IMG/VR virus record: IMGVR_UViG_3300022821_000046
Location: 1-41,522 of that record
Source of the DNA: a virus
DNA length: 41,522 nt
Strand: one strand, 5' to 3'
Made by a program: the position numbers and the translations under genes. Below the pieces are notes generated by a model. The model searched no databases. It saw only the letters and a list, made by a program, of their open reading frames with translations, and was not told where the DNA came from. This document shows positions 11,483 to 33,625 of the stretch, in pieces (position 1 is the first letter of the stretch; every line of letters starts with the position of its first letter).

Positions 11483-12739
11483 ATGCAGATAGAATATAAA
11501 AATTGTGTATTAGACCAACAGGCATTATTTGATACTATTGGTTATGCTCCCCATCCCAAGCAATGGATATTGCATAATTCGAATTCTAAGTTTAGAGTAT
11601 TAGCATGTGGAAGACGATGGGGTAAATCAGTCTCTGCAGCAGCTGAAGTAATGAAAGGAGCAGTCATACCAAATCAAATGTTATGGTGTGTTGCTCCAAC
11701 ATATGATTTAGCACGAAAGGTATTCAGAGAAGTATATAAATATTTTACACATAAGCTTCCACATTGGATTGAAGTAAAATCAGAATCACGTATGTATTTA
11801 AAATTAATTAACGGCACTGTTATTGAAGGAAAGTCAGCAGATAACCCAGATTCTTTGATAGGAGAGGGTGTTGATGGGATGATAATAGATGAAGCTGCTC
11901 GTATTAAGAAAACAACATGGGAAGAAAGTTTATTACCTACTTTAACAGATAAAGACGGATGGTGCATTGCTATTTCTACTCCAAGAGGACGTAATTGGTT
12001 TCATGAGATTTTTGTTGAAGGACAAGATAATTTGATAATGGATGTATCAAGCTGGACATTCCCTAGTATTACTAATCCATACTTAAATCCGGATGTAATT
12101 GCAGCTCAAAAGAGAAGGATCTCAAGTAGAGCAGCAGAACAAGAATATGATGCTATATTTTTAACAGATACAGGTGGTGTATTCAGAAATGTAAGAGGAT
12201 GTGTCAGTGGTGAACTAAGAACAATAGCAGAAGGAAATGTTAATTATGTTATGGGTGTAGATCTAGCCAAGTATCAAGATTTTACAGTATTAATCGTAAT
12301 AGACACCAGAGATAATCATGTTGTTTACTTTGATAGATTCAATAAGATAGATTGGAAGTTACAAAAAGATCGTATCATAGCAACAGCCAAGAAATTCAAC
12401 GATGCCAAAGTACATTTAGATGCAACTGGATTGGGAGATCCAATACTTGATGATTTAAGAGGAACTGGAATGAATATTATAGGACATAAATTTAATAATA
12501 AGTTTAAGAATGATATTATTGATAATTTATCCATGATGATTGAAACACAGGAGATTACATTCCCAGAGATTGAAGTTTTAATTAACGAGCTTACTATATT
12601 TGAGTATGAAATCACAGCAAGTGGTAGAACAAGACTAAATGCACCAGAAGGATATCATGATGATTGTGTCTGCAGTTTAGCATTAGGATGTATTGGAGCA
12701 ATGTCGAATAGAACTTGTGATTCCTTCGAAATAGCCTAA
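11483..12739 (+). CDS. terL: Terminase large subunit
   Basis: DNA-packaging motor, 418 residues. ATPase domain: Walker A CGRRWGKS (42-49), Walker B MIIDEA (133-138), coupling motif STPRG (165-169). Nuclease domain with RNase H fold: D260 in GVDLAKYQDF, D313 in HLDATGLGD, and the DDC acidic pair near 399. All catalytic positions are present. It pumps genomic DNA into the prohead through the portal and cuts it. The gene begins 2 bases after the previous stop and is followed by a strong late promoter, so portal and terminase can be expressed separately. Confidence 0.95.
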   Translation: MQIEYKNCVLDQQALFDTIGYAPHPKQWILHNSNSKFRVLACGRRWGKSVSAAAEVMKGAVIPNQMLWCVAPTYDLARKVFREVYKYFTHKLPHWIEVKSESRMYLKLINGTVIEGKSADNPDSLIGEGVDGMIIDEAARIKKTTWEESLLPTLTDKDGWCIAISTPRGRNWFHEIFVEGQDNLIMDVSSWTFPSITNPYLNPDVIAAQKRRISSRAAEQEYDAIFLTDTGGVFRNVRGCVSGELRTIAEGNVNYVMGVDLAKYQDFTVLIVIDTRDNHVVYFDRFNKIDWKLQKDRIIATAKKFNDAKVHLDATGLGDPILDDLRGTGMNIIGHKFNNKFKNDIIDNLSMMIETQEITFPEIEVLINELTIFEYEITASGRTRLNAPEGYHDDCVCSLALGCIGAMSNRTCDSFEIA

Positions 12740-12788
12740 ATTATATAATTAAGATAATAACATTTAAATATTAATAAAAATATATTTT
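12739..12788 (+). promoter_or_regulatory. Late promoter P1 (portal): palindrome, TATA, start element
   Basis: AATTATATAATT at 12739-12750 (perfect palindrome), 12 bases, TTTAAATA at 12763-12770, then AAAAATATATTTT around the expected start at about 12790. The same three-part layout recurs at 17179 and 22643. The palindrome lies at about -50, upstream of TATA/BRE, as an activator site would. Confidence 0.75.
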
Positions 12789-12826
12789 ATTTATCAGGAT
12801 AAACAATCAGCAATCACTTCACATTC

Positions 12827-14839
12827 ATGGGAATTAAAGATTTATTCACAACTATAAAAGGCAAATTCACTAGTTCTACTTCTAATACTTCCGATGCTTC
12901 TGATTTTGGGATTGAATTTCCAGGAACAGTAGATTTCACAGAGCAATTTAAAGGTGAAGTAAGAAATGTTAATAAAACGACTCCTGAAGATTTAGGTGAA
13001 GAACATCTGTTTGATTTTTCTATGATGGATAAGTTATATATGACATTCGGAATGGCAACAGCAACAATTGATAAATATGTTGATTATATTGTTGGTCCTG
13101 GAATATATTTAAAGGTAGCTGAAGAAGATAAACTTGCACAAAAGGCTAAAATAATACTAGAAGATTGGATGAAGGATATTAATTTTGACACTTTGTTAAG
13201 ACAATGGACTAAAGAAGCATTAAAGAAAGGTTCAGGTTTTATGGAGTTAGGAGATGAAGAGATCCTTAAAGCTAAAATACTAAATGCAACATATATGTAT
13301 ATTAAACGTGATGAATTTGGTGAAGTCCAGGAATATAATCAATATGTTGGTGGATTTAAAAGATTTGATAAAAAACAAGTGACACATTTCAAGCCAAATG
13401 AAGTTGCTCATATTGCATTTAACATAGTGGGTGATTATCCTTATGGAATTGGTATATTATATCCAACATTAAAAACAACAGAATCATTAGTATTTAATGA
13501 AGCACAATTATCAATGTTATTAAAAAGAAAAGCTAATTCTCCAATACATGCTAAATTAGGTGATAAGGAAAAAGGTATTATTCCAACTGCTGCAGCATTA
13601 TCAGCATTTGGTAAGAAAATGGAATGGCTTAATAACAAACATGAATGGGCAACAGGTCCTAATGTTGATATGAAAGTCTTAGAATTTGTTGGTGTTGGTG
13701 ATAAGTTTAACAGTATTTTAGATTATCAACAAAACATGTATTTTTATACAACTCAGATTCCAGAAGTATTAATGGGTAAAGGAAACATCCCAGAAGGATT
13801 AGCAAAAGTACAAATGAAAGCCTTTATGATGAGGATCCAAAGTTTCCAAGAAGAAATCGAGAAGGTAGTTGAACAACAAATATTTAAAAGAATTCTTAAT
13901 GTTCAAGGAATAGATGCTCATGTTGAATTAGAATGGGGATTGCCAGATGAAGAAGCGTCTAATGAAAAATTAGATAGAGTTAGCAACTTAATGAAGACCC
14001 CAACAACAACTAAAGCATTTTATACGTTACTAGAAGCAGAAGCAGTGAAACTATTAGGGCTAGATGAAGACAAATATGAACAATTATTATTAATAGAACC
14101 AGAACCTGTTGAAGAGCCTGTTGAAGATAAGAAAGAATTAACAGATAAAGAAAAACAGAAGATAGCCGATGAGAAAGAAAGAGACAAAGAAGAAACTACA
14201 TCACTACCATTAATTCCAGGAGAGCAAAGACAAGCAATAGATGATGAGCATATTCATACTGAATTATGCACTTGTGATATATGTAATGAAGGAGATATGT
14301 TTAAAGAATATAGCCTACAAGAATGGTTAGGTTTTAATTATCAAACATATATAGAAGACATACAAGATGTTATTGCATCAGACCAATTCAAATTATTAAA
14401 AGCAACAACACAACAAGATATAAAATTAGGTAAACTTAAACAAGTTAAAATAGAAAAACTTAGAAACATAATGCATGTTGGATTCACAGAAGGAAAGAGT
14501 GTAAAATGGATTGAGAACGAAATAAAAAGATCTGTAAAACCTCCTAACACATATAAAGAAAAAGACGGCAAATTTATTAAAACTACTGATAAAAGTTTAA
14601 GACCAAATATGATTGCAAGAACAGAAACAACACGATTTGCATCTCAAGGAGCATTAAAGAATTATGCTAGTAAAGGAGTTAAGAATGTTAGATGGGTGTC
14701 ATCATTAGGAGAAAGAACTTGCCAAGAATGTTCAGCAATGAATGGTGAAATATTTACAATCAACGAAGCAAATAACCAAATACCATTACATGTAGCTTGT
14801 AGATGTACATTTGCACCTATAACAGAGTTGGATTTATAA
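12827..14839 (+). CDS. Portal protein fused to head-morphogenesis (Mu gpF-like) domain
   Basis: A 670-residue fusion. Residues 1-430: portal protein (MDKLYMTFGMATATIDKYVD, GVGDKFNSILDYQQNMYFYT, and a helical TTQIPEVLMGKGN segment) forming the dodecameric DNA gate and connector. Residues 430-480: acidic linker. Residues 480-500: HIHTELCTCDICNEG, a possible zinc site. Residues 520-670: SPP1 gp7/Mu gpF-like minor head domain ending in TCQECSAMNGEIF ... HVACRCTFAP with C-x2-C and CRC. Such fusions are known in tailed viruses. The start follows late promoter P1, but no strong ribosome binding site is visible before ATG 12827. Confidence 0.9.
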   Translation: MGIKDLFTTIKGKFTSSTSNTSDASDFGIEFPGTVDFTEQFKGEVRNVNKTTPEDLGEEHLFDFSMMDKLYMTFGMATATIDKYVDYIVGPGIYLKVAEEDKLAQKAKIILEDWMKDINFDTLLRQWTKEALKKGSGFMELGDEEILKAKILNATYMYIKRDEFGEVQEYNQYVGGFKRFDKKQVTHFKPNEVAHIAFNIVGDYPYGIGILYPTLKTTESLVFNEAQLSMLLKRKANSPIHAKLGDKEKGIIPTAAALSAFGKKMEWLNNKHEWATGPNVDMKVLEFVGVGDKFNSILDYQQNMYFYTTQIPEVLMGKGNIPEGLAKVQMKAFMMRIQSFQEEIEKVVEQQIFKRILNVQGIDAHVELEWGLPDEEASNEKLDRVSNLMKTPTTTKAFYTLLEAEAVKLLGLDEDKYEQLLLIEPEPVEEPVEDKKELTDKEKQKIADEKERDKEETTSLPLIPGEQRQAIDDEHIHTELCTCDICNEGDMFKEYSLQEWLGFNYQTYIEDIQDVIASDQFKLLKATTQQDIKLGKLKQVKIEKLRNIMHVGFTEGKSVKWIENEIKRSVKPPNTYKEKDGKFIKTTDKSLRPNMIARTETTRFASQGALKNYASKGVKNVRWVSSLGERTCQECSAMNGEIFTINEANNQIPLHVACRCTFAPITELDL

Positions 14840-14994
14840 TGGAAAAACCAGTATGTTGTGTTAAAGGTTGTGAAAACCCAGCATTTATTTGTGTATATGA
14901 TGAATGGTATTGTGGAGAGTGCATGCATAAACTTCATAATAATAATAAGAAATTTTTACAAGAATCATTAAAAAGTAAGATCCGAGGTGATTAA
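14839..14994 (+). CDS. Zinc-ribbon-like small protein, 51 aa
   Basis: The ATG at 14839 shares its A with the portal stop. Cysteines at about 6, 7, 11, 18, 26 and 29 (PVCCVKGCENPAFICVYDEW, YCGECMHKL) form two knuckles able to bind zinc; the C-terminus is basic. This resembles small zinc-binding proteins found beside portal genes; role unknown. It ends with GAGGTGA that serves the next gene. Confidence 0.65.
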   Translation: MEKPVCCVKGCENPAFICVYDEWYCGECMHKLHNNNKKFLQESLKSKIRGD

Positions 14995-14995
14995 T

Positions 14996-15067
14996 ATGCC
15001 AGATAGAGATGGAACTGGACCAAGTGGACAAGGTGCAGGTACAGGAAAAGGAAGAGGAAATTGTTAA
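14996..15067 (+). CDS. DUF5320-like Gly-rich mini protein, 23 aa
   Basis: A 23-residue frame with GAGGTGA 5 bases before ATG 14996. The pattern MPDRDGTGPSGQGAGTGKGR ending in a single Cys follows the MPxxDxTGPxGxGxxTGxGxGxC form of DUF5320-like mini proteins frequent in methanogens and anaerobic bacteria. It lies between two head genes with no gaps, which supports a real gene. Function unknown; resemblance is by memory of the pattern. Confidence 0.5.
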   Translation: MPDRDGTGPSGQGAGTGKGRGNC

Positions 15068-15382
15068 ATGGTAGTGTTTATCAGCCCAAGATTTAATCAA
15101 AGGTTTTTACGAGATAAATTTAATACAGACATTGTTATTGACAGTGATTCTGCTACAGATTCGCTTAAAAATGAAGATGTATTGGTAACTGGCGATTGGG
15201 TAGATTATACAGGTAGCGAAACAGTTACTAGATCTCAAGCACAGTTTGCTGGTGTACCTAACGAATTACAATTATCAAGAGCAGGTATTATGGGTGAAGA
15301 GCAGCAACAACTAACACGAAGAGGTAATTCAGCACAAATGTATAGAACAAGAAAACACTTGGAGTATTTAGATTTCAAATGA
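15068..15382 (+). CDS. Hypothetical head-region protein, 104 aa
   Basis: ATG 15068 directly follows the mini gene's TAA. It has a beta-like first half (VFISPRFNQRFL, DIVIDSDSATDSL) and a polar second half rich in Gln and Arg (GEEQQQLTRRGNSAQMYRTR). Position between portal and prohead protease suggests a structural or assembly role. No family recognised. Confidence 0.5.
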   Translation: MVVFISPRFNQRFLRDKFNTDIVIDSDSATDSLKNEDVLVTGDWVDYTGSETVTRSQAQFAGVPNELQLSRAGIMGEEQQQLTRRGNSAQMYRTRKHLEYLDFK

Positions 15383-15777
15383 AAAAAACAGAAGAAGGAA
15401 TTGAAGTAACAATACGAGAAACAGAAGACATTAAAGAGGAGAATATTAAAGAATTAATATTACAATTGAATACAATAGACAGTACAGAAGCATCTTTGAT
15501 TACTCCATTAATTAATGGAAAATTACTTGCAGGTATTATAACATCAAATTTACCAGTTCACATTACAATATCATTAGTCAATAATCCATCAATCAAAATA
15601 TATGATAATAAAGAATTTGAGGGAAGTTATTATTTACCATTTATGATTTCATCAGTAAGTCATTCAGGAAATGTGTTTAACTTTGCTCTGTCTAATTGGA
15701 TGCTTAATGATATGTTAAAGATTAGCATTAAAGGACGAAAAGAAACTAATACTGAAATTAAATTAAGATATAAATAA
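15379..15777 (+). CDS. Hypothetical beta-rich head-region protein, 132 aa
   Basis: Overlaps the preceding gene by 4 bases (ATGA). Acidic N-terminus, then alternating strands (ASLITPLINGKLLAGIITSN, LPVHITISLVNN, FEGSYYLPFMISS, NFALSNWMLNDML), a beta-sandwich-like profile. Probably a virion structural or decoration protein. No family recognised. Confidence 0.5.
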   Translation: MKKTEEGIEVTIRETEDIKEENIKELILQLNTIDSTEASLITPLINGKLLAGIITSNLPVHITISLVNNPSIKIYDNKEFEGSYYLPFMISSVSHSGNVFNFALSNWMLNDMLKISIKGRKETNTEIKLRYK

Positions 15778-15788
15778 GGTGATAACCA

Positions 15789-16163
15789 ATGGTTAGAGAA
15801 GACAGAATAAAAACAGCAAATTTAACAACAGATACATTCACAGTAGCAACATCAGGAGTTGCAGTATATTTAGATAATCCTATTAATGGACAGATAGTTC
15901 AAATAGACCAATCAGCATTCTGGCAAAATGGTAGTTTATCATTATCAGTTTCAGGAACAGGTCAAGTAATATGGTTAAATAATGCATCAAGTGGTGCAGG
16001 AGTGAGTAATCATTATCCAGCACATTTCAATCAAACAGCTGCAGGAAGTATAGCAAACGCATCATTAGTTCCATATTGTGTAGATAATGTATTAATACTT
16101 AAAACAGGAAGCACAGCAAGTGGAACAGACCAAATATTAAGTGTAGATATTAAATATATTTAA
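15789..16163 (+). CDS. Predicted beta-sandwich virion protein, 124 aa
   Basis: GGTGA precedes ATG 15789. Ser/Thr/Gly-rich strands (DTFTVATSGVAVYLDNPING, SLSLSVSGTGQVIWLNNASS) and ending in DQILSVDIKYI. This composition is usual for capsid decoration or fibre-like proteins that face the medium. It lies in the run of small genes between portal and protease. Role inferred from composition only. Confidence 0.5.
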   Translation: MVREDRIKTANLTTDTFTVATSGVAVYLDNPINGQIVQIDQSAFWQNGSLSLSVSGTGQVIWLNNASSGAGVSNHYPAHFNQTAAGSIANASLVPYCVDNVLILKTGSTASGTDQILSVDIKYI

Positions 16164-16171
16164 GGTGAACT

Positions 16172-16507
16172 ATGGCAGAGGCGATAATTGATGGTACAGG
16201 AAGTGGAAACTACTGGCGAATAAATTCATCAGGAGCAGGATTAGTAGTATTAGATGCTCCAATAGTTATTGGTAGTGTTAGTGTCGCAGTAGACACAGTT
16301 TATGTTCAAAGTGGAGTTACTTTTGTTGATACAAGACGACCTACATTAGATTCTTGGAATCCTGGATTAACAATGGTATGGTCTTCTGGAGTTGGAGTTA
16401 ATGGTAGTCAATTAACACAAGTAATAAAAGGAGACGGAGCAGGAAGTGTTGTTCAAGATTTATCATGGACAGATGATACATTAACTAATGTAGGAAGTTG
16501 GTATTAA
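16172..16507 (+). CDS. Predicted virion surface protein, 111 aa
   Basis: AAGGTGA lies ahead of ATG 16172. Gly/Ser/Val-rich beta protein (GTGSGNYWRINSSGAGLVVL, VIGSVSVAVDTVYVQSGVTF) with several tryptophans. It ends directly against the next start. Likely structural, with a role similar to its neighbour at 15789; no family recognised. Confidence 0.5.
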   Translation: MAEAIIDGTGSGNYWRINSSGAGLVVLDAPIVIGSVSVAVDTVYVQSGVTFVDTRRPTLDSWNPGLTMVWSSGVGVNGSQLTQVIKGDGAGSVVQDLSWTDDTLTNVGSWY

Positions 16508-16705
16508 ATGCCAAAACCAAATCCTCCAAGACCTGATTTTACTAATTTTATTATTGAACATCAAATTTATTCTCATAATGGTGAATTTCTTAAATTAGAT
16601 GGTTCTAATGCTAATACAGATATTGATATTGGTATTTATAACTTTACAGCTACAGATGGGACAGTAGTAATATTAACATACGAGACAACAGAGGGATGGT
16701 ATTAA
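16508..16705 (+). CDS. Hypothetical small beta protein, 65 aa
   Basis: ATG 16508 directly follows the previous TAA. Pro-rich opening (PKPNPPRPDFTNF), then DGSNANTDIDIGIYNFTATD and VVILTYETTEGWY. Its C-terminal sequence resembles that of the broken next gene (TVIYE ending), so the two may be related modules. Function unknown. Confidence 0.5.
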   Translation: MPKPNPPRPDFTNFIIEHQIYSHNGEFLKLDGSNANTDIDIGIYNFTATDGTVVILTYETTEGWY

Positions 16706-16706
16706 A

Positions 16707-16809
16707 ATGAGCAGTATCTTTAGATTTTCAAGGAATGCCATTTAGTGATGGATTAAGATTATATGTAGAAACAGGAAAAGATGCAAGTTTAACAGTAATA
16801 TACGAATAA
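16707..16809 (+). pseudogene. Small gene disrupted at its start codon
   Basis: ATG 16707 opens a frame that stops after 12 residues. If the A at 16710 is removed the ATG joins a coding-like frame (AVSLDFQGMPFSDGLRLYVE, TGKDASLTVIYE) ending TAA 16807-16809, which overlaps the next ATG by one base as is usual here. That frame has no other start until an internal ATG (23 residues). One-base insertion by mutation or sequencing error. Confidence 0.5.
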
Positions 16810-17003
16810 TGGAGACAATGGAAGAGCAACATAAAAATAAATTAATAAATAATATGCAAATTAAATTAAGATTTTTGCAGAAAGATTTATTAAAAGCACT
16901 AAGATGTGCTAATGTAAGAATTAAATTTTTACAAAATGATTTAGATAGATTAAAAACTTCAGAGGAGGTAAACGAAAATGGAACAACAAAAACAATTAAC
17001 TAA
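16809..17003 (+). CDS. Coiled-coil protein, 64 aa
   Basis: ATG 16809 overlaps the previous stop. Basic helical heptads (NKLINNMQIKLRFLQKDLLK, NVRIKFLQNDLDRLK). It overlaps the next gene, in another frame, by 26 bases, and its last codons carry the GAGGT ribosome binding site for it. Unknown function; may act in assembly. Confidence 0.5.
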   Translation: METMEEQHKNKLINNMQIKLRFLQKDLLKALRCANVRIKFLQNDLDRLKTSEEVNENGTTKTIN

Positions 17004-17160
17004 AGAGCAAGCATTTGCATTAGTAGATAGAGTGTGCTCAAATGTTCAATTAACTAGAGCAGATAATGCATCAGTAATTGCAGCACTTCAATTGATAGCT
17101 AAAGAGTTGTCAGACAAACCAGTAGAACCAGTAAAAAAAGAAATAGACAAAAAGGTGTAA
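16978..17160 (+). CDS. Hypothetical helical protein, 60 aa
   Basis: GAGGTAAACGAAA precedes ATG 16978. A compact helical protein (LTKEQAFALVDRVCSNVQLT, SVIAALQLIAKELSD) with a charged tail, resembling small phage helical proteins rather than any named family. It ends the portal transcription unit, just upstream of late promoter P2. Confidence 0.5.
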   Translation: MEQQKQLTKEQAFALVDRVCSNVQLTRADNASVIAALQLIAKELSDKPVEPVKKEIDKKV

Positions 17161-17178
17161 AAACCTTATTTTCTTCTT

Positions 17179-17230
17179 AATTATATAATTAGGTTAATAA
17201 CATTTAAATATTATAAAAAATATATTTTCT
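17179..17230 (+). promoter_or_regulatory. Late promoter P2 (protease, scaffold, capsid)
   Basis: AATTATATAATT at 17179-17190, 12 bases (AGGTTAATAACA), TTTAAATA at 17203-17210, then AAAAAATATATTTT near the expected start at about 17230. Nearly identical to P1 over more than 40 bases despite lying between unrelated genes. Drives the capsid genes. Confidence 0.75.
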
Positions 17231-17261
17231 CTATGAGGAGTTTAATTTAAAGGTGGAAAAC

Positions 17262-17888
17262 ATGACCGATATATCTAATACAGAAAAATTATGCGAATTT
17301 ATGGTTCCTATTTCCGAAGCAGTAACAGTCGGAGAAGATTTTATAATAAAAGGAATAGCCATAAACTCAACAACAACACGTAATGGTGTTAAATACACAG
17401 CTGAAGAATTATCTAAAGCAGCTCATACCTTAACAGGTAGACCAATTCTAAAAGACCATGAGAATTCTATTGATAACATTATTGGTAAAGTAAAAAAGTC
17501 TTCATTTGATAATGCTATAAAGGCAATACCATTTGAAGGAAAGATAATGGAAAAGAAATATCAAGAAATGATAAAAGATGGTAGAATTAATAGTGTTAGT
17601 ATTGGTGCCATGGTTAAAGAAATAACAGAAGAGAAAGTAAATGAAGATTCTAATGAAACAGTGTTAGTACCTAAGGGTATTGAGTTTGTAGAATTGAGTC
17701 TTGTCGCAGTACCATCAGACCCTAATGCAAATTTTGCGAGAGCAGTTTGTGAAAAGTTTGCTAATACAGATAATACAAAAATATTAAAAGAAAATATTGA
17801 AAAGCTTGAATTACAAACAGGAATTTTTAAATGCAGAAAAGAAATGAATTCAAGAATAGAAAAACAAAATAGGAGGTTTTCTAAATGA
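17262..17888 (+). CDS. Prohead protease (HK97/U35-type)
   Basis: Start at ATG 17262 with AGGTGG ahead; an in-frame GTG at 17253 overlaps that site. 208 residues. Catalytic His66 in KDHENS and Ser111/113 in NSVSIGAM fit the serine protease fold of head maturation proteases; a third landmark is VELSLVAVPSDPNA. It cleaves scaffold and capsid N-termini inside the procapsid. The C-terminal 35 residues are helical and basic. It overlaps the scaffold gene by 4 bases (ATGA), the usual arrangement. Confidence 0.85.
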   Translation: MTDISNTEKLCEFMVPISEAVTVGEDFIIKGIAINSTTTRNGVKYTAEELSKAAHTLTGRPILKDHENSIDNIIGKVKKSSFDNAIKAIPFEGKIMEKKYQEMIKDGRINSVSIGAMVKEITEEKVNEDSNETVLVPKGIEFVELSLVAVPSDPNANFARAVCEKFANTDNTKILKENIEKLELQTGIFKCRKEMNSRIEKQNRRFSK

Positions 17889-18325: not shown

Positions 18326-18332
18326 ATAGAAA

Positions 18333-18767: not shown

Positions 18768-18778
18768 GTGAAAAGAAG

Positions 18779-19636
18779 ATGACACTAGAATACTTAAAAG
18801 AATATTTAAGCACAGCAGATGGTACAGAAGGAAGTTTGTTAATTGCGAAAAAGATTTACGATACACTTATTGAGGAAGTAGATAAAAACTTAATCCCAAG
18901 AAGTGAAGCAGGATTATATTTTGGTCCAGGAGACATTCCAGGTTCAAGTATAGACATAGATTTAGCAACAGCTAATACTATGGGTGTTAGAATTGTATCT
19001 GAAGGAACAGAAATCCCTATGGATCAAGTTGCTTACACAAGCACTAACCTAAAACCAGTTAAATACGGAGTGGCTATTAGAATCACTCGTGAATTAATGG
19101 AAGATGGTAAGTGGAATTTGTTACAACACAATGTAAAAATTGCAGGAAAAAGATTATCCGAAAACGAAACAAGTTTAATATTAAACTCATTCGCAGACGC
19201 ATCTAATACAGTAACAGGTGGAGCAGCAGCAACAATAGCAAACATTACAAGAGCAATGCAGTATTTAGATGATGCAGATTATCAACCTACTACATTATTT
19301 ATTGGAATGGAATTCCTTAACGACTTAAGAAACATTGATACTTTCGTTGAAGCAAATAAAGTAGGTAATACTGAAATGCTTGATAGAGGATTTGTAGGAA
19401 CAATCTATGGTTTGAATGTAGTTAAATTCTCAACAAATGCAGCACCAACAACAACTTGGAGCAAATATGGTATCGTAACAGATAAAATGAATGCTTATGC
19501 AATTGCTGAAAAAAGACCAGTATCAGTTGAAAACTTTGACTTACCAACATACGATATGAGTGCAGCAGCTGTAACTCAAAGAATCGTTGTTGAATTAATC
19601 AGAGCAGATGCAGTTTGTAAAATTACTACTTCTTAA
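18779..19636 (+). CDS. Major capsid protein (HK97 fold)
   Basis: A 285-residue protein. The N-terminal helix and E-loop region (LIPRSEAGLYFGPGDIPGSS), spine (SENETSLILNSFADASNT), P-domain and A-domain strands (YGLNVVKFSTNAAPTT, VENFDLPTYDMSAAAVTQRI) follow the HK97-fold order seen in phage and archaeal tailed-virus capsids. It forms the icosahedral shell. The N-terminus shows no long delta domain, fitting a separate scaffold gene. GGTGA precedes ATG 18779. A T-rich terminator follows directly, usual for this most abundant product. Confidence 0.85.
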   Translation: MTLEYLKEYLSTADGTEGSLLIAKKIYDTLIEEVDKNLIPRSEAGLYFGPGDIPGSSIDIDLATANTMGVRIVSEGTEIPMDQVAYTSTNLKPVKYGVAIRITRELMEDGKWNLLQHNVKIAGKRLSENETSLILNSFADASNTVTGGAAATIANITRAMQYLDDADYQPTTLFIGMEFLNDLRNIDTFVEANKVGNTEMLDRGFVGTIYGLNVVKFSTNAAPTTTWSKYGIVTDKMNAYAIAEKRPVSVENFDLPTYDMSAAAVTQRIVVELIRADAVCKITTS

Positions 19637-19672
19637 AGTAGTTTATTTTTTTTTATTTTTTTTATTTTAATA
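19637..19672 (+). terminator. T-rich terminator after major capsid gene
   Basis: Beginning at the capsid stop codon, about 33 bases are nearly all T with a few A (three T runs of 5 to 9). No hairpin is needed for archaeal termination. It probably sets a high ratio of capsid to downstream products. Confidence 0.6.
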
Positions 19673-19680
19673 TTTAATCA

Positions 19681-19733: not shown

Positions 19734-19750
19734 CGAGTAAGGAGGAACAA

Positions 19751-20323: not shown

Positions 20324-20335
20324 GTGACAAAAAAA

Positions 20336-20530: not shown

Positions 20531-20531
20531 T

Positions 20532-22273: not shown

Positions 22274-22644
22274 AAAAGGTTAATATATTAGGAGTTAATA
22301 AAGCAATAGGATATTTGAGTGGTAGAGGTAAAGCGATTGATGCAGCAACCAAAAAAGGTGTTGAACAAGCCACATTATATGTAGAAGGGCAAGTAAAAGA
22401 TAGTATTGCTGGAAGAAATGCAGAACCACGAAGTGTTGACACAGGACTTTTTATGAAGACAGTATATTCAAAAACAAAAGGTGCATCAGGAACAGTAGCA
22501 AGTAATGTAGAATATTCAGGCGAGTTAGAACACGGTTCATCTAAAAGACAAGGTAGATATCATTTTAGAAATACATTAGCAAGAACAAAAGGTAAAGTAG
22601 AAACATACATCAGAGATAAAGTAAAAAAGGCAACACATTTATAA
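22270..22644 (+). CDS. HK97 gp10-like head-tail/tail completion protein
   Basis: A 124-residue protein with the typical helix VEQATLYVEGQVKDSI, the loop RSVDTGLFMKTVYSKT, the strand ASNVEYSGELEHGSSKRQGR (the family's conserved Y-x3-E-G) and a final helix. Proteins of this family complete the head-tail interface or the tail terminator ring. Late promoter P3 begins at its stop codon. Confidence 0.75.
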   Translation: MKKVNILGVNKAIGYLSGRGKAIDAATKKGVEQATLYVEGQVKDSIAGRNAEPRSVDTGLFMKTVYSKTKGASGTVASNVEYSGELEHGSSKRQGRYHFRNTLARTKGKVETYIRDKVKKATHL

Positions 22645-22690
22645 TTATATAATTAGGTTAATTAAATTTAAATAAGATAAAAAATATATT
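22643..22690 (+). promoter_or_regulatory. Late promoter P3 (tail operon)
   Basis: AATTATATAATT at 22643-22654, overlapping the stop of the gp10-like gene, 12 bases (AGGTTAATTAAA), TTTAAATA at 22667-22674, then AAAAAATATATTTT. It matches P1 and P2 in order and spacing. Expected start about 22694; the tail genes follow. Confidence 0.75.
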
Positions 22691-22738
22691 TTATTAAACA
22701 GTTGAAGCGATATTGTTTAATCCAATGCGAGGAAAGAA

Positions 22739-23191
22739 ATGGCAGTAGCAAGTAGCACATTAATAAGTGACACAGTAATATTTGTAAGGAATTTACTCCG
22801 AACAAATGTAACAGATCCTATTACATCTACAAGAGGTTCTAGTTCTAAATTCGTAATGACATCATATCCAAGAAGACCAGTGAAATATCCTTTAATAACA
22901 GTAAAATTGACAGATATGATTGCTAGTAAATTAGGTATGCAAACAAGTGCTCAATTAGTAAATAGTGAATTAGAAGTTAGAGTTTGGGCTAGAAATGTCA
23001 CAGAGCGAGATGAACTAACCCAAAAAGTTTATGGAGTATTAAGAACAAAACAATATATAGCATCATCAGGAAGTTATGCTAATGATTTAAATGATTTCGC
23101 AGTTACATCAATGACAGATGTTGACGAAGAAGGCGAACAAGGATTACGTTCAAAAATAATTATAATTAAATATATGTTTATATCAACTTAG
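22739..23191 (+). CDS. Putative tail terminator protein
   Basis: A 150-residue protein placed between gp10-like and tail tube genes. N-terminal helix (SSTLISDTVIFVRNLLRTNV), strand and loop (YPRRPVKYPLITVKLTDM), then SELEVRVWARNVTERDELTQ and a C-terminal strand IIIIKYMFIST: the alpha/beta order of tail terminators that cap the tail tube. GCGAGGAAAG precedes ATG 22739. Confidence 0.6.
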   Translation: MAVASSTLISDTVIFVRNLLRTNVTDPITSTRGSSSKFVMTSYPRRPVKYPLITVKLTDMIASKLGMQTSAQLVNSELEVRVWARNVTERDELTQKVYGVLRTKQYIASSGSYANDLNDFAVTSMTDVDEEGEQGLRSKIIIIKYMFIST

Positions 23192-26915: not shown

Positions 26916-28504
26916 TAACACCAAAGTTTGAAGTAGCTGGAACTGGTTATAATGTTAATACTCTAAAGGTAACTTCAACTATTGGTGATTCAAATTCTGC
27001 TAGTACATTCACTTCTTTTGTAAAAAACCCAAACAATAAATATGATGATGTGTTTGATATTGGTGAAGAAGTGATTATTTATGCAGACAAAGATACAACA
27101 ACACCAACAACAAAAATATTTACTGGATTAATAGAAACAGCAACACATAAAGGTACAGGTCAAGATAGTACATTAGAAATTAAAGGTCGTGATTATTCTA
27201 AATATTTAATGGATGTTATTGTTGAACCAGAGATATATACAGACCAAGAAGTTAGTATAACAATCACAGATTTAATGGCTAAATATGCACCATTATTGAC
27301 AGTAGTAAATGTTGCAGTAACAACCACTATATTAGAAAGAATTTCTTTTAATAATATAAGTATGTTTGATGCTATAAAAAAATTAGCAGCTAAAGCAAAC
27401 TTTTATTTTTATGTAGACAACGATAAAGATTTACATTTCGTAGAGCAAGAAAGTAATCCAAGTGGAATAACACTAGACAATACCAATGTAATTAGTAGTT
27501 CATTTTCAGAAACATCAAGAGAGATATATAATAATGTATGGGTTTATGGTGACAGAATATTATCAGGATGGACTAATACATTTACAGGTGATGGAGTAGG
27601 AAGTGTTTACACATTAGATTATAAACCACACAACACAAAAAACTTTGTTAATGATGTATTACAGAAAGGTGGAATATATGAGATGATGGCTCTTGCTCCA
27701 GAATCAGGTATAAATTATTTAGTTGATTACGATTCAAAAAATATCATATTTATTAGTGGAACTGATGCAGGATATAACATCCCAGGAAGTGGCAGTGGTG
27801 TAACTATTAATTACGATAGAAGCACACCAATAATTAAATATGGAGTTAATAGAGCAAGTGAAACAACTTATGGTAAAAAAGATAAAGTTATTGTAGACAC
27901 TAATATAAAAGACCCACGAGAAGCAAAACAAATAGTTTTACAAACACTTAATGAATATTCAGCACCAAGAATTCAAGGTTCGGTAAATATCGAAGGCATT
28001 ATAGCAATAACTGCTGGGGATACAGTTAAAATCAATTTACCAGACACTACAATAATTAATCAAACTTATCAAATATTATCAGTATCATATAATTTCAACG
28101 ACACCACAATACAAAATGGAAAGGTTGTTTCAATATCAGTATCAAAAAAATTATTAGATTTAACAGATACATTAAAAGATATGCTAATACAATTAAGACA
28201 ATTGCAAGCAAACAATCAAATAACAGATGGTGTAATATCAAGATTAGAAACAGACGAAATAAATCAAAAATTTAGAGTTAAAGAATGGAAAGTAACAAAA
28301 TCAGAAGTAGAAAATTCATTTATACTTGGTGGTTCTGTGAATGGATTATTAGGTAGTCCATATTTAGCACCCAATGGTTCACAATTAATATTGGGTTCAA
28401 GTTCTGCCATTACAACAATAATAGCAAGTGGAACAGAAGCAAGTGGTGGATTATTATGGCCAACAGCATGGGGAACATGGGGATTAGCCCAAGAATATAA
28501 TTAA
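26912..28504 (+). CDS. Tail hub / distal tail protein
   Basis: A 530-residue protein placed after the tape measure. Residues 1-110 (FTSFVKNPNNKYDDVFDIGE, KIFTGLIETATHKGTGQDST, LEIKGRDYSKYL) match the first domain of phage hub proteins of the gp27/gpD late-control family; residues 110-210 (FNNISMFDAIKKLAAKANFY, FYVDNDKDLHFVEQES) match the second. The last 70 residues end in Gly/Trp-rich strands (WPTAWGTWGLAQEY). It links the tail tip to the fibres. Confidence 0.7.
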   Translation: MITPKFEVAGTGYNVNTLKVTSTIGDSNSASTFTSFVKNPNNKYDDVFDIGEEVIIYADKDTTTPTTKIFTGLIETATHKGTGQDSTLEIKGRDYSKYLMDVIVEPEIYTDQEVSITITDLMAKYAPLLTVVNVAVTTTILERISFNNISMFDAIKKLAAKANFYFYVDNDKDLHFVEQESNPSGITLDNTNVISSSFSETSREIYNNVWVYGDRILSGWTNTFTGDGVGSVYTLDYKPHNTKNFVNDVLQKGGIYEMMALAPESGINYLVDYDSKNIIFISGTDAGYNIPGSGSGVTINYDRSTPIIKYGVNRASETTYGKKDKVIVDTNIKDPREAKQIVLQTLNEYSAPRIQGSVNIEGIIAITAGDTVKINLPDTTIINQTYQILSVSYNFNDTTIQNGKVVSISVSKKLLDLTDTLKDMLIQLRQLQANNQITDGVISRLETDEINQKFRVKEWKVTKSEVENSFILGGSVNGLLGSPYLAPNGSQLILGSSSAITTIIASGTEASGGLLWPTAWGTWGLAQEYN

Positions 28505-28513
28505 TGAGGAAAA

Positions 28514-28618
28514 ATGACAGATACAAAATCAATTTCAGGTACACAATTCGGAACATGGGGAAAAGAATCTTCTGTTCATACAACATTAACAGATATAGAA
28601 ATAAAACACGAGGTATAA
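28514..28618 (+). CDS. Tiny tail-region protein, 34 aa
   Basis: ATG 28514 preceded by GAGGAAAA and followed 5 bases later by the fibre gene. The sequence has FGTWGKESSVHTTLTDIEIK; its GTWG echoes the end of the hub protein. It may be a fibre adaptor or a hub extension split off as a separate gene. Function unknown. Confidence 0.45.
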   Translation: MTDTKSISGTQFGTWGKESSVHTTLTDIEIKHEV

Positions 28619-28622
28619 TAAC

Positions 28623-30059
28623 ATGGCAACAATAACACTTATATCAGATATAGCGTCAGGATTTTTAGAAGCAGACTTTAATCAAATAAAGACATTAACA
28701 AACGGATTAGATGATGGTTCAATAGCGTCAAATAATGCTAAAATATCATATACAGATGCAGCAGCAGTAGGATTAAACACAACACATAGAACATCAACTG
28801 GTGCTAACCATACATGGCTTGACCAAGCTTTATTAACTACATCAAGTCCAACATTCGCTGGATTAACAGTTGATACAAATACATTATATGTAGATGCTAC
28901 AAATGATAGAGTAGGAATCGGAACAACAAGTCCTATTGATAAATTAGAAGTTGTAAATAATAACAATTCTGTTATATGGCCAGTTGTTTCAAGAAATAAA
29001 TATCATAATACAGATATTGGTTATGGAACAGGAATTAAATTTAAATTAAGTAGTGTTGATACAACAATTGAAGCATATAAATGGTCAGGAATTGCAGGAG
29101 TAAGTGAATCAACTTATGGTAGTAGAAGTGGATTAGCATTTTATACTCAACAATCTACAACAAGTGCTCTTCCACCAGTAGAATCTATGAGAATATCGTA
29201 TGATGGTAAAGTAGGAATCGGAACAACAACTCCATCATCATTATTACATACTTATACAGCAATATCAACTCCAGGAAGTGGAGAAGCTACAGGAGTAGGT
29301 CAAATAAGAATAGATAATGCTGCAGGTAGTTTATCAAGTGCTGGTGGTATTGAATTTAAGGTTGCTGGAGATTCAAATGGTTTTGGAAGTAAGATACAAG
29401 CAATAAATAGTGGAGGTTCACAATTAGTGTTTGCAAATAGACATGGTACTGCTACATGGACAGAACGTATGAGATTAAGTGATGCAGGAAACTTAACAAT
29501 AACAGGAGCATTAAGTAAAGGTTCAGGAACATTTACAATAGACCATCCATTAGACCCTAAGAATAAATTATTACAACATTCATTCGTGGAAAGTCCAGAA
29601 ATGAGAAATATGTATTATGGTCAAGCAGATATTATTAATGGAAAAGCTATAATAGTTTTACCAGATTGGTGGGAAGCATTGAACGGAACTGATAAAGAAG
29701 AATATAATTATCAATTTACACCAATAGGAGAATTTGCTAATATATTTGTATCAAAAGAAATATCAAATGGAGAGTTTGAAATATCAGCAGATAAAGATAT
29801 AAAAGTATCTTGGCAAATATCAGCAATTAGACATGATAAGTTTGCAGAAGCTAACAGAGTAATAGTTGAAGTTGATAAAGAAGAACCAGTTGAAGTTGAT
29901 GAAATTGTTGAACAAGAAGAGAAAGATGAAGAAGGAAAAATAATAAAAGAAGCAAAAACAAAGAAAGTAATTAATAATAAATCACAAGCTAAAGGATTTT
30001 ATAGACATCCAGAAGTATATAAGGTTAAAGAAAAGAAAGAGGATTTAATAGGTAAATAA
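28623..30059 (+). CDS. Tail fibre protein 1
   Basis: A 478-residue protein. The N-terminus (ISDIASGFLEADFNQIKTLT) probably attaches to the tail tip. The shaft has repeats with NDRVGIGTTSPIDKLEV and GKVGIGTTTPSSLLHTY, the GIGT-x-SP turn typical of trimeric beta fibres with intramolecular chaperones. Residues 300-410 hold IDHPLDPKNKLLQHSFVESP and a beta domain also known from bacterial surface proteins. The last 60 residues are a Lys/Glu-rich helix. It likely mediates host recognition. No catalytic Ser/Lys dyad of an S74 peptidase is evident. Confidence 0.75.
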   Translation: MATITLISDIASGFLEADFNQIKTLTNGLDDGSIASNNAKISYTDAAAVGLNTTHRTSTGANHTWLDQALLTTSSPTFAGLTVDTNTLYVDATNDRVGIGTTSPIDKLEVVNNNNSVIWPVVSRNKYHNTDIGYGTGIKFKLSSVDTTIEAYKWSGIAGVSESTYGSRSGLAFYTQQSTTSALPPVESMRISYDGKVGIGTTTPSSLLHTYTAISTPGSGEATGVGQIRIDNAAGSLSSAGGIEFKVAGDSNGFGSKIQAINSGGSQLVFANRHGTATWTERMRLSDAGNLTITGALSKGSGTFTIDHPLDPKNKLLQHSFVESPEMRNMYYGQADIINGKAIIVLPDWWEALNGTDKEEYNYQFTPIGEFANIFVSKEISNGEFEISADKDIKVSWQISAIRHDKFAEANRVIVEVDKEEPVEVDEIVEQEEKDEEGKIIKEAKTKKVINNKSQAKGFYRHPEVYKVKEKKEDLIGK

Positions 30060-30061
30060 AA

Positions 30062-30421
30062 ATGGGAATAACTCATGTAGGAAAATCAGGATTAGCATTA
30101 TTACTTGGTCCATCTGGCTCAAGACCTTTAGCAATAGCCATAGGTACTGGTAGTGGAATTGTTAATGAATTTAATACTGACTTAATTAATGAAACAGATA
30201 GAGCAACATTTTCTTCAACTGATATAGCAACAGCAGAAGAAACAACATTTATTTCAGATTTTAATTCATTAGAAATGAGTGGAACAACATTAACAGAATT
30301 TGGTGTATATTCTTCTGGCTCTTCAGGAGTTGGTAAGTGCTGGAGTAGAGAAGGATTCACAGGAGTAGATTTTGACGGTACAAATGAAGTACAAATACAA
30401 GTTATTTATAAAATAGTTTGA
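30062..30421 (+). CDS. Fibre-associated structural protein, 119 aa
   Basis: ATG 30062 follows the fibre stop by 2 bases. A beta-rich protein (GLALLLGPSGSRPLAIAIGT, TTLTEFGVYSSGSSGVGKCW) ending in EVQIQVIYKIV. Such LTEFG-VYSS proteins are common between phage fibre genes and are probably baseplate or fibre connectors. Role inferred from position. Confidence 0.55.
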   Translation: MGITHVGKSGLALLLGPSGSRPLAIAIGTGSGIVNEFNTDLINETDRATFSSTDIATAEETTFISDFNSLEMSGTTLTEFGVYSSGSSGVGKCWSREGFTGVDFDGTNEVQIQVIYKIV

Positions 30422-30432
30422 GGTAAATAAAG

Positions 30433-31461
30433 ATGACAAATAAAAATACAGCATTAGGAGGGACTGATTGGGTAGATGGTGAAATATTATATGCAGCAGA
30501 TTTAAATGATACATTTGATGTATTAACAAACGGTGCACCACTTTATATTGATATTACTAACAATAGACTAGGAATAGGGACATCAAGTCCAACAGAAAAA
30601 TTGGATGTCCTTAATGGAAATATAACAATGAATAAAGGTTATAGTTTACAATTAGGTGGAGACGCTAATGCAGAGATAAGAGTAGACGATGCACCAGCTT
30701 GGTCAACAAGAAACAATGTAATGACATTCAAGACTTATGATGTAGCAGGTACTACAGGTGCATGGATTTTTAGAGGAAGTAATACTGGTACTAATTTTAT
30801 GTCAATATTAGGAAGTGGTTATGTAGGAATCGGAACATCAAGTCCAGCAGGAAAATTAGAAGTAGAAAATGCAGGAACAGACCCTGGAATATTTATAGAC
30901 CAAAATGGTAATGGTATAAGTTTAAATATAGATAGTGAAGCAACTACAGCTAATGCAATTGCTCTTGCTTGTTTAGGTACTGGAGCAGGAATGCTTATTA
31001 CACAAGCTGGAGCTGGTTATGGATTAGACATAGACCAAAATGGAGCTGCAGATGGTATACATATAGATATGGCTTCTGGTAGTTTAAAAGGAATAGATAT
31101 GACTACTTTAGGTGATACTGGTATGCAAATTTATAAAACAGGTGGTGCAGGTTATGGAATAGGAATCGCAAATAGTGGTGGAACTGGTGATTCATTGCAT
31201 ATATACAATACAGTAGATGAATGGTGTGTATATCTTTCACAAGATGGTGATGAAGGTGGATTACACATCAGTATGGACAGTCCAACAGTAGGTGGAGCAT
31301 CTAAACCAGCAATAGATATAAGTATGTCAGACAGTACTTGTTGGCCATTAGAATTTAGTTCAACAAGTCCAACAAGCCCAGCAAATGGTGCATTTTGGTA
31401 TGATGGTAGTAATCTAAAATTTAGGACAGGTGGCACTACATACACTTTAACGATGAGTTAA
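30433..31461 (+). CDS. Tail fibre protein 2
   Basis: A 342-residue fibre. It opens with DWVDGEILYAADLNDTFDVL (attachment), then NNRLGIGTSSPTEKLDVLNG and VGIGTSSPAGKLEVENAG repeats as in fibre 1, followed by a Gly/Asp-rich series of about 20-residue strands (GAGYGLDIDQNGAADGIHID, GLHISMDS) that looks like a beta-helix. It ends in a small domain (FWYDGSNLKFRTGGTTYTLT) common at phage fibre tips. Probably a receptor-binding partner of fibre 1. Confidence 0.7.
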   Translation: MTNKNTALGGTDWVDGEILYAADLNDTFDVLTNGAPLYIDITNNRLGIGTSSPTEKLDVLNGNITMNKGYSLQLGGDANAEIRVDDAPAWSTRNNVMTFKTYDVAGTTGAWIFRGSNTGTNFMSILGSGYVGIGTSSPAGKLEVENAGTDPGIFIDQNGNGISLNIDSEATTANAIALACLGTGAGMLITQAGAGYGLDIDQNGAADGIHIDMASGSLKGIDMTTLGDTGMQIYKTGGAGYGIGIANSGGTGDSLHIYNTVDEWCVYLSQDGDEGGLHISMDSPTVGGASKPAIDISMSDSTCWPLEFSSTSPTSPANGAFWYDGSNLKFRTGGTTYTLTMS

Positions 31462-31463
31462 AA

Positions 31464-32060
31464 ATGAAATACGATTTGTTTTATTATAAATTATTATCAA
31501 TATACAACATTAAGTTAGTAGGTACTAACTTTATTTCTAGTTCTATTTCTTGGCTAATAGATGCTAAATATAGAAAATATAGTACATTAAATTCTTGGTT
31601 ACATAAACAATTAATTAATCCATCTAAATCATTAAAAACATTAGCTTTATCATTAACTAACTCTGAAAGAGATGATGATAAAACAGTTGTTAATATAGTT
31701 AAATGGGTTAAAAATAATGTTAAATATAAAGCAGATCCATATGAAGAATGGAAAGGAGCATATCAAACATTCATAGATAAATATGGAGATTGTGATGATA
31801 TGAATTGTCTTGTGTATATATTATGTAGATTAGCTGGTGTTCATCAATTCAAACTATTTTGTGGTATAGGTGAGATGGACTTAGGTGGACATTTCTTTCC
31901 ACTATATTATAGTACAAAAGAATTAAAGTTAGTTACTTTAGATACTACATATTATCCTAATAATATTTCTGTAAAGAAAAGACAAGAATTTAATGATTTA
32001 GAATATCATAAAAATATATGGTATATGTTTAACGAAGATATTTGTATAAAACCACTTTAA
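31464..32060 (+). CDS. Transglutaminase-like cysteine peptidase
   Basis: A 198-residue protein with the Cys-His-Asp triad of the transglutaminase-like fold: C110 in YGDCDDMNCL, H143 in GGHFFPLYY and D160 in TLDTTYYP. The N-terminal 80 residues are helical. In viruses of methanogens this fold is used by pseudomurein endopeptidases, and in other phages by maturation or tail-tip peptidases. Its place after the fibres and before a holin-like gene suits cell-envelope cleavage at entry or lysis. The true substrate cannot be read from sequence. Confidence 0.75.
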   Translation: MKYDLFYYKLLSIYNIKLVGTNFISSSISWLIDAKYRKYSTLNSWLHKQLINPSKSLKTLALSLTNSERDDDKTVVNIVKWVKNNVKYKADPYEEWKGAYQTFIDKYGDCDDMNCLVYILCRLAGVHQFKLFCGIGEMDLGGHFFPLYYSTKELKLVTLDTTYYPNNISVKKRQEFNDLEYHKNIWYMFNEDICIKPL

Positions 32061-32076
32061 AATTACGGAGGAAAAA

Positions 32077-32263
32077 AATGGCAATAAAATTTATTAAAGA
32101 TAAAAAATGGTATAAATCAAAAACAGTGTGGGTTAGTATTTTAACAATAGTTGGTGGAATAATAACTGCAGTTACAGCAGATTTAACAGCAGGAGTTACA
32201 ATCACAACATTGGGAGTAATAAATACAGCACTTAGAATAATTACTAAAACACAACTTAAATAA
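32077..32263 (+). CDS. Holin-like small membrane protein
   Basis: Start at ATG 32077 with GGAGG 6 bases ahead. 61 residues: basic N-terminus (KFIKDKKWYKSKT), hydrophobic segment (VWVSILTIVGGIITAVTADL), a short turn and a second amphipathic segment (TTLGVINTALRIITKTQLK). Small proteins with WYKSKT-W near phage lysis genes are often proposed as holins. It ends the tail operon before a terminator. Holin role is inference. Confidence 0.55.
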
Positions 32264-32282
32264 TTATAACCCCCCTAACAAT

Positions 32283-32328
32283 CCCATAGGCGTAGTTTAT
32301 TCTCTCTTTATTTGTCTATGGGTTTTTT
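32283..32328 (+). terminator. Terminator of the tail operon
   Basis: CCCATAG (32283-32289) and CTATGGG (32316-32322) form a 7-bp stem with a 26-base T-rich loop, then six T. It lies just after the holin-like gene and right before late promoter P4. Confidence 0.65.
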
Positions 32329-32331
32329 CTT

Positions 32332-32363
32332 AATTATATAATTATGGTAATAAGGTTTATATA
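32332..32363 (+). promoter_or_regulatory. Late promoter P4 (32389 operon)
   Basis: AATTATATAATT at 32332-32343, 12 bases (ATGGTAATAAGG), TTTATATA at 32356-32363. The ATG at 32389 is 33 bases after the TATA start, so the transcript is leaderless or nearly so. Same geometry as P1-P3. Confidence 0.75.
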
Positions 32364-32388
32364 TCACTAAATATATATATAAATATAT

Positions 32389-32613
32389 ATGGAAATATAT
32401 TCTAACGAGCAACCAATAGATGTACAGAAAGTTCAAGTACAAGTCAAAGATCCTGTATGTGGAAAAAGTAGGAGTTTTACTGTTCATAATGTAACAGTCG
32501 ATGAATTATTTAATAAAATAATGTTCTTAATTGAAAGATTATCTAAAACAGAGGATGATGTGCAATTAGTATATTATAAAGGAGGACTGAAACAATGTCA
32601 AAAAGAGAATTAA
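32389..32613 (+). CDS. Hypothetical protein, leaderless, 74 aa
   Basis: First gene of a three-gene unit under P4. It contains VQVQVKDPVCGKSRSFTVHN and VDELFNKIMFLIERLSKTED, with two cysteines near the middle and end. The overlap of 19 bases with the next gene includes that gene's GGAGG site. No family recognised; late timing is inferred from the promoter. Confidence 0.55.
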   Translation: MEIYSNEQPIDVQKVQVQVKDPVCGKSRSFTVHNVTVDELFNKIMFLIERLSKTEDDVQLVYYKGGLKQCQKEN

Positions 32614-32900
32614 CAACTGAAGAAAAGGAAGTAACAACAAAGAATGTAAAAACTTTGAAAGAAGACATAGAATATGTAAACTTTCAAAAAGAATATCATA
32701 ATCTTATGATTGAAAAAGGATTAAAATTAAATTATGAAAGAAAGCTTGCAGAGTTTCGTAACAATTTAAAAAAAATAGAAACGGATGGTGCTAAAGCAGA
32801 ATTTACTATTGCTAGTGCAGAGGACCAATTAAAAAATGGTGTAGAAGTTAAAGAGCCAAAAGTAGTAGAAGAACCAGAAGAAGTAGAGGAGAGTGATTAA
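32595..32900 (+). CDS. Coiled-coil protein, 101 aa
   Basis: AAAGGAGG precedes ATG 32595. Highly charged helix throughout (TTKNVKTLKEDIEYVNFQKE, LAEFRNNLKKIETDGAKAEF) with an acidic tail (EEPEEVEESD). Likely an oligomeric structural or adaptor protein; unknown. Confidence 0.5.
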   Translation: MSKRELTTEEKEVTTKNVKTLKEDIEYVNFQKEYHNLMIEKGLKLNYERKLAEFRNNLKKIETDGAKAEFTIASAEDQLKNGVEVKEPKVVEEPEEVEESD

Positions 32901-32901
32901 T

Positions 32902-33387
32902 ATGGATGGAATAATTAGAGTAGCTACAGACGAAGAAAAAAGAAATTTTGTAGATTTAACTACTAAAAAGAAATCAGTTTTTGAAGAACAAATAGCAACA
33001 AAAGAACAAGATGCTATAGAATTTCATAAACCATTTTGTGCAAGATGTGCAAGATTAGATTATAAAGATAAAATGAAAAGTATTGTTACTGAGTTAGAAA
33101 GATCTCAAGGATTTGTAGACCCTAACGATAAAAAAATAACAGATGTTACTATTGACCTTTCACAATATGGTAAAAGAGATAGATTTACATTATTAGCAAC
33201 AAGCCCTACTACAGAAAATAAATTAATTGATGGAGTTCGAGTTCCTTACACAACTGGGTATTTTATGAAATATCAATGTAGAAAAAGAGGTTGTGGAGTA
33301 TCTGTAGAAGTACCACTAGATTATTATAATGAGCATTATAATAAAGACAAAATTATTAAAGTGCCCCTTTCTGATAAAAAGGTTTAA
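32902..33387 (+). CDS. Zinc-binding hypothetical protein, 161 aa
   Basis: Start at ATG 32902 (a GTG at 32893 is in frame; GAGGAGAG lies ahead). Cysteine pairs FCARCARLDY near residue 46 and YQCRKRGCGVSV near 137 are spaced as a split zinc knuckle. An alpha/beta middle (TDVTIDLSQYGKRDRFTLLA). No family recognised. Its last codons carry the TATA box of the AbrB-like gene. Confidence 0.55.
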   Translation: MDGIIRVATDEEKRNFVDLTTKKKSVFEEQIATKEQDAIEFHKPFCARCARLDYKDKMKSIVTELERSQGFVDPNDKKITDVTIDLSQYGKRDRFTLLATSPTTENKLIDGVRVPYTTGYFMKYQCRKRGCGVSVEVPLDYYNEHYNKDKIIKVPLSDKKV

Positions 33388-33404
33388 ATAGTAATTATAT
33401 AATT
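33383..33404 (+). promoter_or_regulatory. AbrB-like gene promoter with palindrome inside the core
   Basis: TTTAAATA at 33383-33390 and, only 2 bases on, AATTATATAATT at 33393-33404. The ATG at 33413 lies at the expected start, so the message is leaderless. Here the palindrome lies between TATA and start, where a bound protein would block RNA polymerase, in contrast to its upstream place in P1-P4. Confidence 0.75.
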
Positions 33405-33412
33405 AACATTGT

Positions 33413-33625
33413 ATGGAAAAAAGTAGGTATTTCAGAAAGATAAGAAAATTAACACATGGTAACAAAACTGGTGATGCCTACGGTATTACCATTCCACGTT
33501 TTTTAGCAGACAAGTTCTATAATACATCTATGCATATTTATAGTAGCGGTAACGCTATTATCATAGAGAGTGGAGCATTAATTAATAAAGGAAAAATAGG
33601 TAATGATAATGTACTACCATATTAA
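33413..33625 (+). CDS. AbrB/SpoVT-like (swapped-hairpin) transcription regulator
   Basis: A 70-residue protein. Residues 5-55 read as an AbrB-type domain: RKIRKLTHGNKTGDAYGITI, then PRFLADKF, then MHIYSSGNAIIIESG, with the characteristic ITIP-R turn and the final strand pair. These proteins dimerise and bind AT-rich palindromes. The palindrome shared by five promoters makes it the best candidate for the late-gene switch: activator at P1-P4 and autorepressor here. It also heads the glycosyltransferase cassette, 17 bases before the first enzyme gene. Confidence 0.7.
   Translation: MEKSRYFRKIRKLTHGNKTGDAYGITIPRFLADKFYNTSMHIYSSGNAIIIESGALINKGKIGNDNVLPY

Follow-up and report, generated by a model that had tools for sequence, protein, structure and literature searches.

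A recurrent palindrome at structural-gene promoters of a probable archaeal tailed virus and its candidate AbrB-like reader

Among the proteins of archaeal viruses, a review singles out AvtR of Acidianus filamentous virus 6 as the sole one known to act as both activator and repressor (PMC5569661). This work concerns a 41,522-nucleotide stretch of viral DNA, the whole of which is referred to here as the window (IMG/VR record IMGVR_UViG_3300022821_000046, positions 1 to 41,522), in which the 12-bp palindrome AATTATATAATT is found at the promoters of structural operons and at that of gene 33413 (genes are named by their start positions), the product of which is a candidate regulator. As is proposed below for the 33413 protein, AvtR reportedly represses the gene that encodes it, and it activates or represses another (PMC5569661); however, it has a ribbon-helix-helix (RHH) fold and covers about 100 nt with degenerate sites, whereas here the late operons of tailed viruses are preceded by single palindromes at a fixed spacing. 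C68 of the plasmid-virus pSSVx, an archaeal virus-like element, is a small AbrB-like protein with the swapped-hairpin fold that is also probable for 33413, and it binds at its own promoter, as 33413 is proposed to do. It differs in recognising TATG(C/GG)TTTTC, which overlaps the transcription factor B recognition element (BRE), with an effect on activity that is unknown according to the review (PMC5569661), while in the window a 12-bp palindrome stands at a constant distance ahead of the structural operons and, at the candidate regulator gene, past the TATA box.

Two further systems offer partial likenesses. The Lrp-family regulators Ptr2, LysM and Ss-LrpB activate through contact with the TATA-binding protein (TBP) from a dimer site just upstream of the BRE, the position of which is highly constrained (PMC2995911), although these are cellular regulators with another fold. 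Archaeal viruses such as SIRV2 have a regulatory sequence, common to the TATA regions of a temporal gene class, that marks this class (PMC11065993), but these are early genes and the sequence includes the core promoter and BRE, in contrast to the separate palindrome found here at structural genes and at the regulator's own promoter. Temporal classes are also reported for HFTV1, and a search of that study for promoter terms gave no mention of a motif or TATA box (PMC12542753). The palindrome string occurred in no seemingly related paper, and a literature search, with subscription papers mostly outside its reach, found no late-promoter palindrome of archaeal tailed viruses and no AbrB-like late activator.

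The window holds five exact copies of AATTATATAATT and no sixth (Table 1). Four of these are each separated by a 12-bp spacer from the TATA box of an operon, and the fifth begins 2 bases past the TATA box TTTAAATA of gene 33413 and ends 8 bases short of its ATG. The preliminary description, made from the sequence alone, had reported this arrangement, and it is borne out at every copy; its naming of the portal, capsid and tail units was also right, as these contain portal, prohead protease, major capsid and minor tail genes. The 32389 operon is unassigned. The operons are called late because of their gene content. Palindromes with up to two mismatches are not enriched in the window (35 versus 27.6 expected), and the signal resides in the exact copies. 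When the portal, capsid and tail promoters are aligned, the palindrome is followed by a spacer ending in a TAATAA-like sequence, by TTTAAATA and, 5 bp after the TATA box, by AAAAATATATTTT. The centre of the palindrome is 22 bp from that of the TATA box, about two helical turns, which would place a bound dimer beside transcription factor B (TFB) and on the same helical face.

The palindrome and its spacing are preserved in relatives where the flanking DNA and the proteins have diverged, in favour of the reading given below. Terminase matches were obtained with two IMG/VR contigs, one identical to the window and the other 85% identical; in the latter, both palindrome and spacing are kept at all three late promoters, the surrounding DNA being 77-82% identical. 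More distant relatives (75% capsid identity) have the exact palindrome at their capsid and tail promoters. A scan on DNA alone for the palindrome, 12 N and TTTAWATA across 2.9 million viral contigs of IMG/VR returned 37 stretches, 26 of which lie in loci encoding relatives of the window virus, some with only 35% portal identity. For a test independent of this pattern, alignment of six capsid proteins identified 315 relatives, from which 80 loci were kept and de-replicated to 62 including the window (690 kb). This set contains 60 exact copies of the palindrome against 1.24 expected from a second-order Markov model, while the other 63 A/T-only 12-bp palindromes have a mean of 1.9 copies. A TATA-like box lies downstream in one orientation at 53 of the 60, and the profile of these oriented sites has a sharp TATA box at positions 25-32. 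With the window left out, 111 late-promoter regions of relatives were examined; 69 carry the palindrome with at most one mismatch (the median across the 64 A/T palindromes is 7), and 12 bp is the mode of the spacing to the best TATA box.

Variant palindromes that retain both dyad symmetry and spacing are found in L027 (GATTATATAATC), G030 (GTTTATATAAAC, with GTTTAACTAAAC at the tail) and G034 (TTTTATATAAAA), while the element that recurs at this distance in G029, AATAATATAATA, is less symmetric. Promoters without the canonical palindrome showed no clear peak of general dyad symmetry at offset -24. A dimer-type site upstream of BRE/TATA at a constrained distance, as is characteristic of position-dependent activators, is apparent from the 12-bp mode and the symmetric variants. 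As judged from these sequences, one palindrome stands in two fixed arrangements across many related viruses.

The second arrangement was followed through homologs of gene 33413. A direct search for relatives in IMG/VR and phage records found none, and homologs surfaced only after long contigs of the capsid-related viruses had been assembled; an iterated search of the open reading frames (ORFs) of these relatives located them in seven further genomes and a six-frame search added G027. They are present in eight long relatives (G025-G029, G031, G033 and G034) and also on contig L172. The exact palindrome lies past the TATA box but ahead of the gene's start in the window (G000), G025, G026 and G027 (the same as L173), with a copy bearing one mismatch in G028, and G025-G028 keep this site though their gene neighbourhoods differ. 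On L172 the homolog ends an operon, the promoter of which carries TATTATATAATT after its TATA box. In G034 the variant TTTTATATAAAA appears in both positions: at the 33413 homolog it falls between TATA box and start, and at the divergent 32389-type operon it precedes the TATA box by 12 bp, as at late operons. Just three of 454 predicted genes in five long genomes have the exact palindrome within 50 bp of their start, and all three are 33413 homologs.

The preliminary description had suggested scanning related genomes for co-occurrence of gene and palindrome. An operator between the TATA box and the start of its own gene or operon, as expected of a self-repressor, is seen in G000, G025-G028, L172 and G034; it was not found in G029, G031 and G033. 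The description's reading of the two positions, as those of an activator and self-repressor, gains from the recurrence of the architecture in diverged, differently ordered genomes and from the same changed palindrome at both positions of G034, which is what a self-limiting late activator predicts.

The 33413 protein is probably AbrB-like, although it is not filed here as a member of the family. Its homologs share K-x-R ... YGITIP ... IA..F ... SG.SIILESG. A fold model built without homologs was too poor, while a later AlphaFold2 model using eight homologs (mean predicted local distance difference test score, pLDDT, 65) has the elements E10-14, E22-25, H29-34, E39-45 and E48-54, the strand-strand-helix-strand-strand order expected of a swapped hairpin. 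Comparison by hhalign of 10 homologs with five PF04014 proteins of an archaeal metagenome-assembled genome (MAG) gave an E-value of 0.00072, but a probability of 26%; a control with the capsid protein gave 0.42. Matches to PF04014 itself were weak, being seen with two of eight homologs (best E-value 0.035) and with a six-frame match in G028 (E-value 0.0025, below cut-off).

On balance, we lean towards a reading in which a dimeric DNA-binding protein encoded by the virus, most likely 33413, binds AATTATATAATT and acts in a late switch with negative feedback; gene context, as read from the sequence, supports 33413 in this role. The protein would be made first, from its own short promoter. Its dimers, bound to the upstream palindromes next to the TFB site, would then help to bring TBP and TFB to the four palindrome-led operons (portal, capsid, tail and 32389). 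On the promoter of gene 33413 the protein would occupy the stretch from TATA box to start and so be expected to block polymerase, which would limit expression of 33413 itself and of the glycosyltransferase genes downstream. The outcome would be a late switch that limits itself. Whether this extends to a large group of uncultured tailed viruses, probably archaeal, in which an AbrB-like protein activates the structural operons and represses itself while operator and regulator change together between lineages, appears to us evenly poised. A precise operator, two positions, a candidate reader and natural variants (AATTATATAATT, GTTTATATAAAC and TTTTATATAAAA) make late-gene activation in archaeal tailed viruses directly testable. 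The module may also be used as a DNA-only probe for collecting and annotating viruses of uncultured archaea, since a single pattern scan pulled relatives from millions of contigs.

A number of observations weigh against 33413 as an AbrB-like late activator. The window protein has no match in Pfam or NCBIfam, AbrB included, and a PDB profile search with it found no relatives. The first three Foldseek matches in the PDB are C56 of pSSVi, MazE and AbrB, all with E-values above 1, and the best in a viral set has 0.54; this weak fold match may arise because a monomer model stands for an interlocked dimer. The AbrB-like identity given in the preliminary description is a weak assignment, supported by a weak profile match, a medium-confidence model with fitting strand-helix order and non-significant fold matches. 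The homologs of G029, G031 and G033 are internal to operons and have no recognisable palindrome nearby, and no homolog was found in G030 (42 kb, with its own palindrome) or G032, which may be incomplete. The assignment of activation to the upstream position rests on precedent and would hold by analogy. RHH genes, moreover, lie directly behind the palindrome in G012, G014, G017, G025, G026, G028 and G040, and more distantly in G010, and the site at 33413 may mark this gene and the glycosyltransferases as mere targets.

The main rival reader is a small RHH protein, for which the window candidate would be a 40-aa protein encoded at 6666-6788 (RHH_1 E-value 0.0013, narrowly missing the cut-off). 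RHH regulators have been described from archaeal viruses, AvtR both activating and repressing (PMC5569661), and in many relatives an RHH gene occupies the slot of 32389. That slot holds a 32389-type gene in G000, G033 and G034, however, and G000 still keeps the exact palindrome. In the relatives, the RHH gene is preceded by the site at the late-gene position and at no other, as would hold for any late gene. At the window RHH gene a separate element, AAGTTATAcAACTTATATAAC, follows the TATA box and is repeated at the replication operon (3709-3729); its core TTATATAA is shared with the late palindrome, but the operator is a different one with G/C flanks, and the window protein is not clearly homologous to the RHH proteins of the family (E-value about 0.5-1.3). 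We regard an RHH reader as rather unlikely, while joint action of RHH and 33413 is possible. It is improbable that gene 33413 is only a target, another factor activating the late genes and shutting off the 33413-glycosyltransferase operon via the same site. A palindrome in a promoter does not tell which protein reads it, and a glycosyltransferase-like gene lies directly behind the homologs wherever the downstream gene was read; against this, the product of 33413 is probably a DNA-binding protein, and the gene occurs in every examined relative of at least 55 kb (G025-G029) and moves between gene contexts. It is also common for DNA-binding proteins to bind their own promoter.

Reliance of archaeal viruses on host transcription machinery (PMC5569661) raises the prospect of a host transcription factor as reader. 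The palindrome varies between related viruses at constant spacing, though, and in the Pacearchaeota MAG of about 0.8 Mb in which the only close capsid relative was found, the one module match (with one mismatch) is on the viral contig, making this quite improbable. Promoters here are about 85-95% A/T and often contain another A/T palindrome, AAAATATATTTT, as well, so that the element could in principle be an extended core promoter or an easily melted or bent A/T element rather than a regulator site. The exact 12-mer is far above other A/T palindromes, however, and has symmetric variants at constant spacing as well as a second, different position at one gene; we give this explanation very little credence.

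Table 1. Promoter elements and genes of the window associated with the palindrome.
Feature	Position	Strand	Remarks
Palindrome AATTATATAATT, upstream (activator-type) position, portal operon	12739..12750	+	Exact in relative L015, same place
TATA box TTTAAATA, portal operon	12763..12770	+	
AAAAATATATTTT element past TATA box, about where DNA first melts	12776..12788	+	Aligned in portal, capsid and tail promoters of window and L015
Portal/Mu F-like gene, heads portal operon	12827..14839	+	Pfam/PHROG
Palindrome, upstream position, protease/capsid operon	17179..17190	+	
TATA box TTTAAATA, protease/capsid operon	17203..17210	+	
Prohead protease-like gene	17253..17888	+	NCBIfam
HK97-fold major capsid protein	18779..19636	+	Query used for finding relatives
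Palindrome, upstream position, tail operon	22643..22654	+	
TATA box TTTAAATA, tail operon	22667..22674	+	
First gene of tail operon	22739..23191	+	Minor tail protein gene 23210 next; homologs share same leader
Palindrome, upstream position, 32389-32595-32893 operon	32332..32343	+	
TATA box TTTATATA, 32389 operon	32356..32363	+	TATA-to-ATG distance fits leaderless transcript
Gene heading 32389 operon	32389..32613	+	Homologs in G033 and G034
TATA box TTTAAATA, gene 33413	33383..33390	+	
Palindrome between TATA box and start codon (repressor-type position), gene 33413	33393..33404	+	
Candidate regulator, 70 aa, probable swapped-hairpin (AbrB/MazE-like) DNA-binding protein	33413..33625	+	Homologs, profile comparison, model
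Glycosyltransferase-like gene directly behind candidate regulator	33643..34860	+	

The window virus is a tailed virus, probably of archaea. In the capsid alignment, one contig binned with a Pacearchaeota MAG (L063, L181, L182) holds a capsid relative, together with genes for RtcB, RlaP and a poly(A) polymerase/HD protein. This suggests a DPANN host, with binning error possible, and the assignment is tentative because it depends on a single MAG contig, a close capsid match being present in one of 371 genomes of that phylum. A TerL search of genome contigs found none.

The pair of regulator and glycosyltransferase-like gene (window 33413-34860) recurs in G029 and G034, and a similar glycosyltransferase-like start was read from the sequence behind the homolog in L171, L172 and L175.

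The window RHH gene at 6666-6788 had been overlooked by a 50-aa ORF cut-off. A tandem operator, AAGTTATAYAACTTATATAAC, follows the TATA box both at the replication operon (minus strand, 3709-3729) and at the RHH gene (6642-6662); six matches with at most three mismatches occur versus 0.04 expected, all at these two places.

The leader of the tail operon (22693-22732) contains a hairpin with the loop AAGCGA and, directly ahead of the start codon, another motif of this kind. Across the 29 relatives that have both motifs, mean stem lengths are 7.3 and 3.5 bp (control 0.29); the stems differ in sequence yet pair, and the loop variants AAACGA and AAGTGA mostly change in both hairpins together. No match was found in Rfam. 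The tandem hairpins are likely to form a translational operator.

In translation, 6793-7026 resembles a ParB-like/DNA methyltransferase gene of which both ends are present but not the central part, and 40618-41484 encodes a protein with a run of near-identical VWDSVGASV-type repeats.

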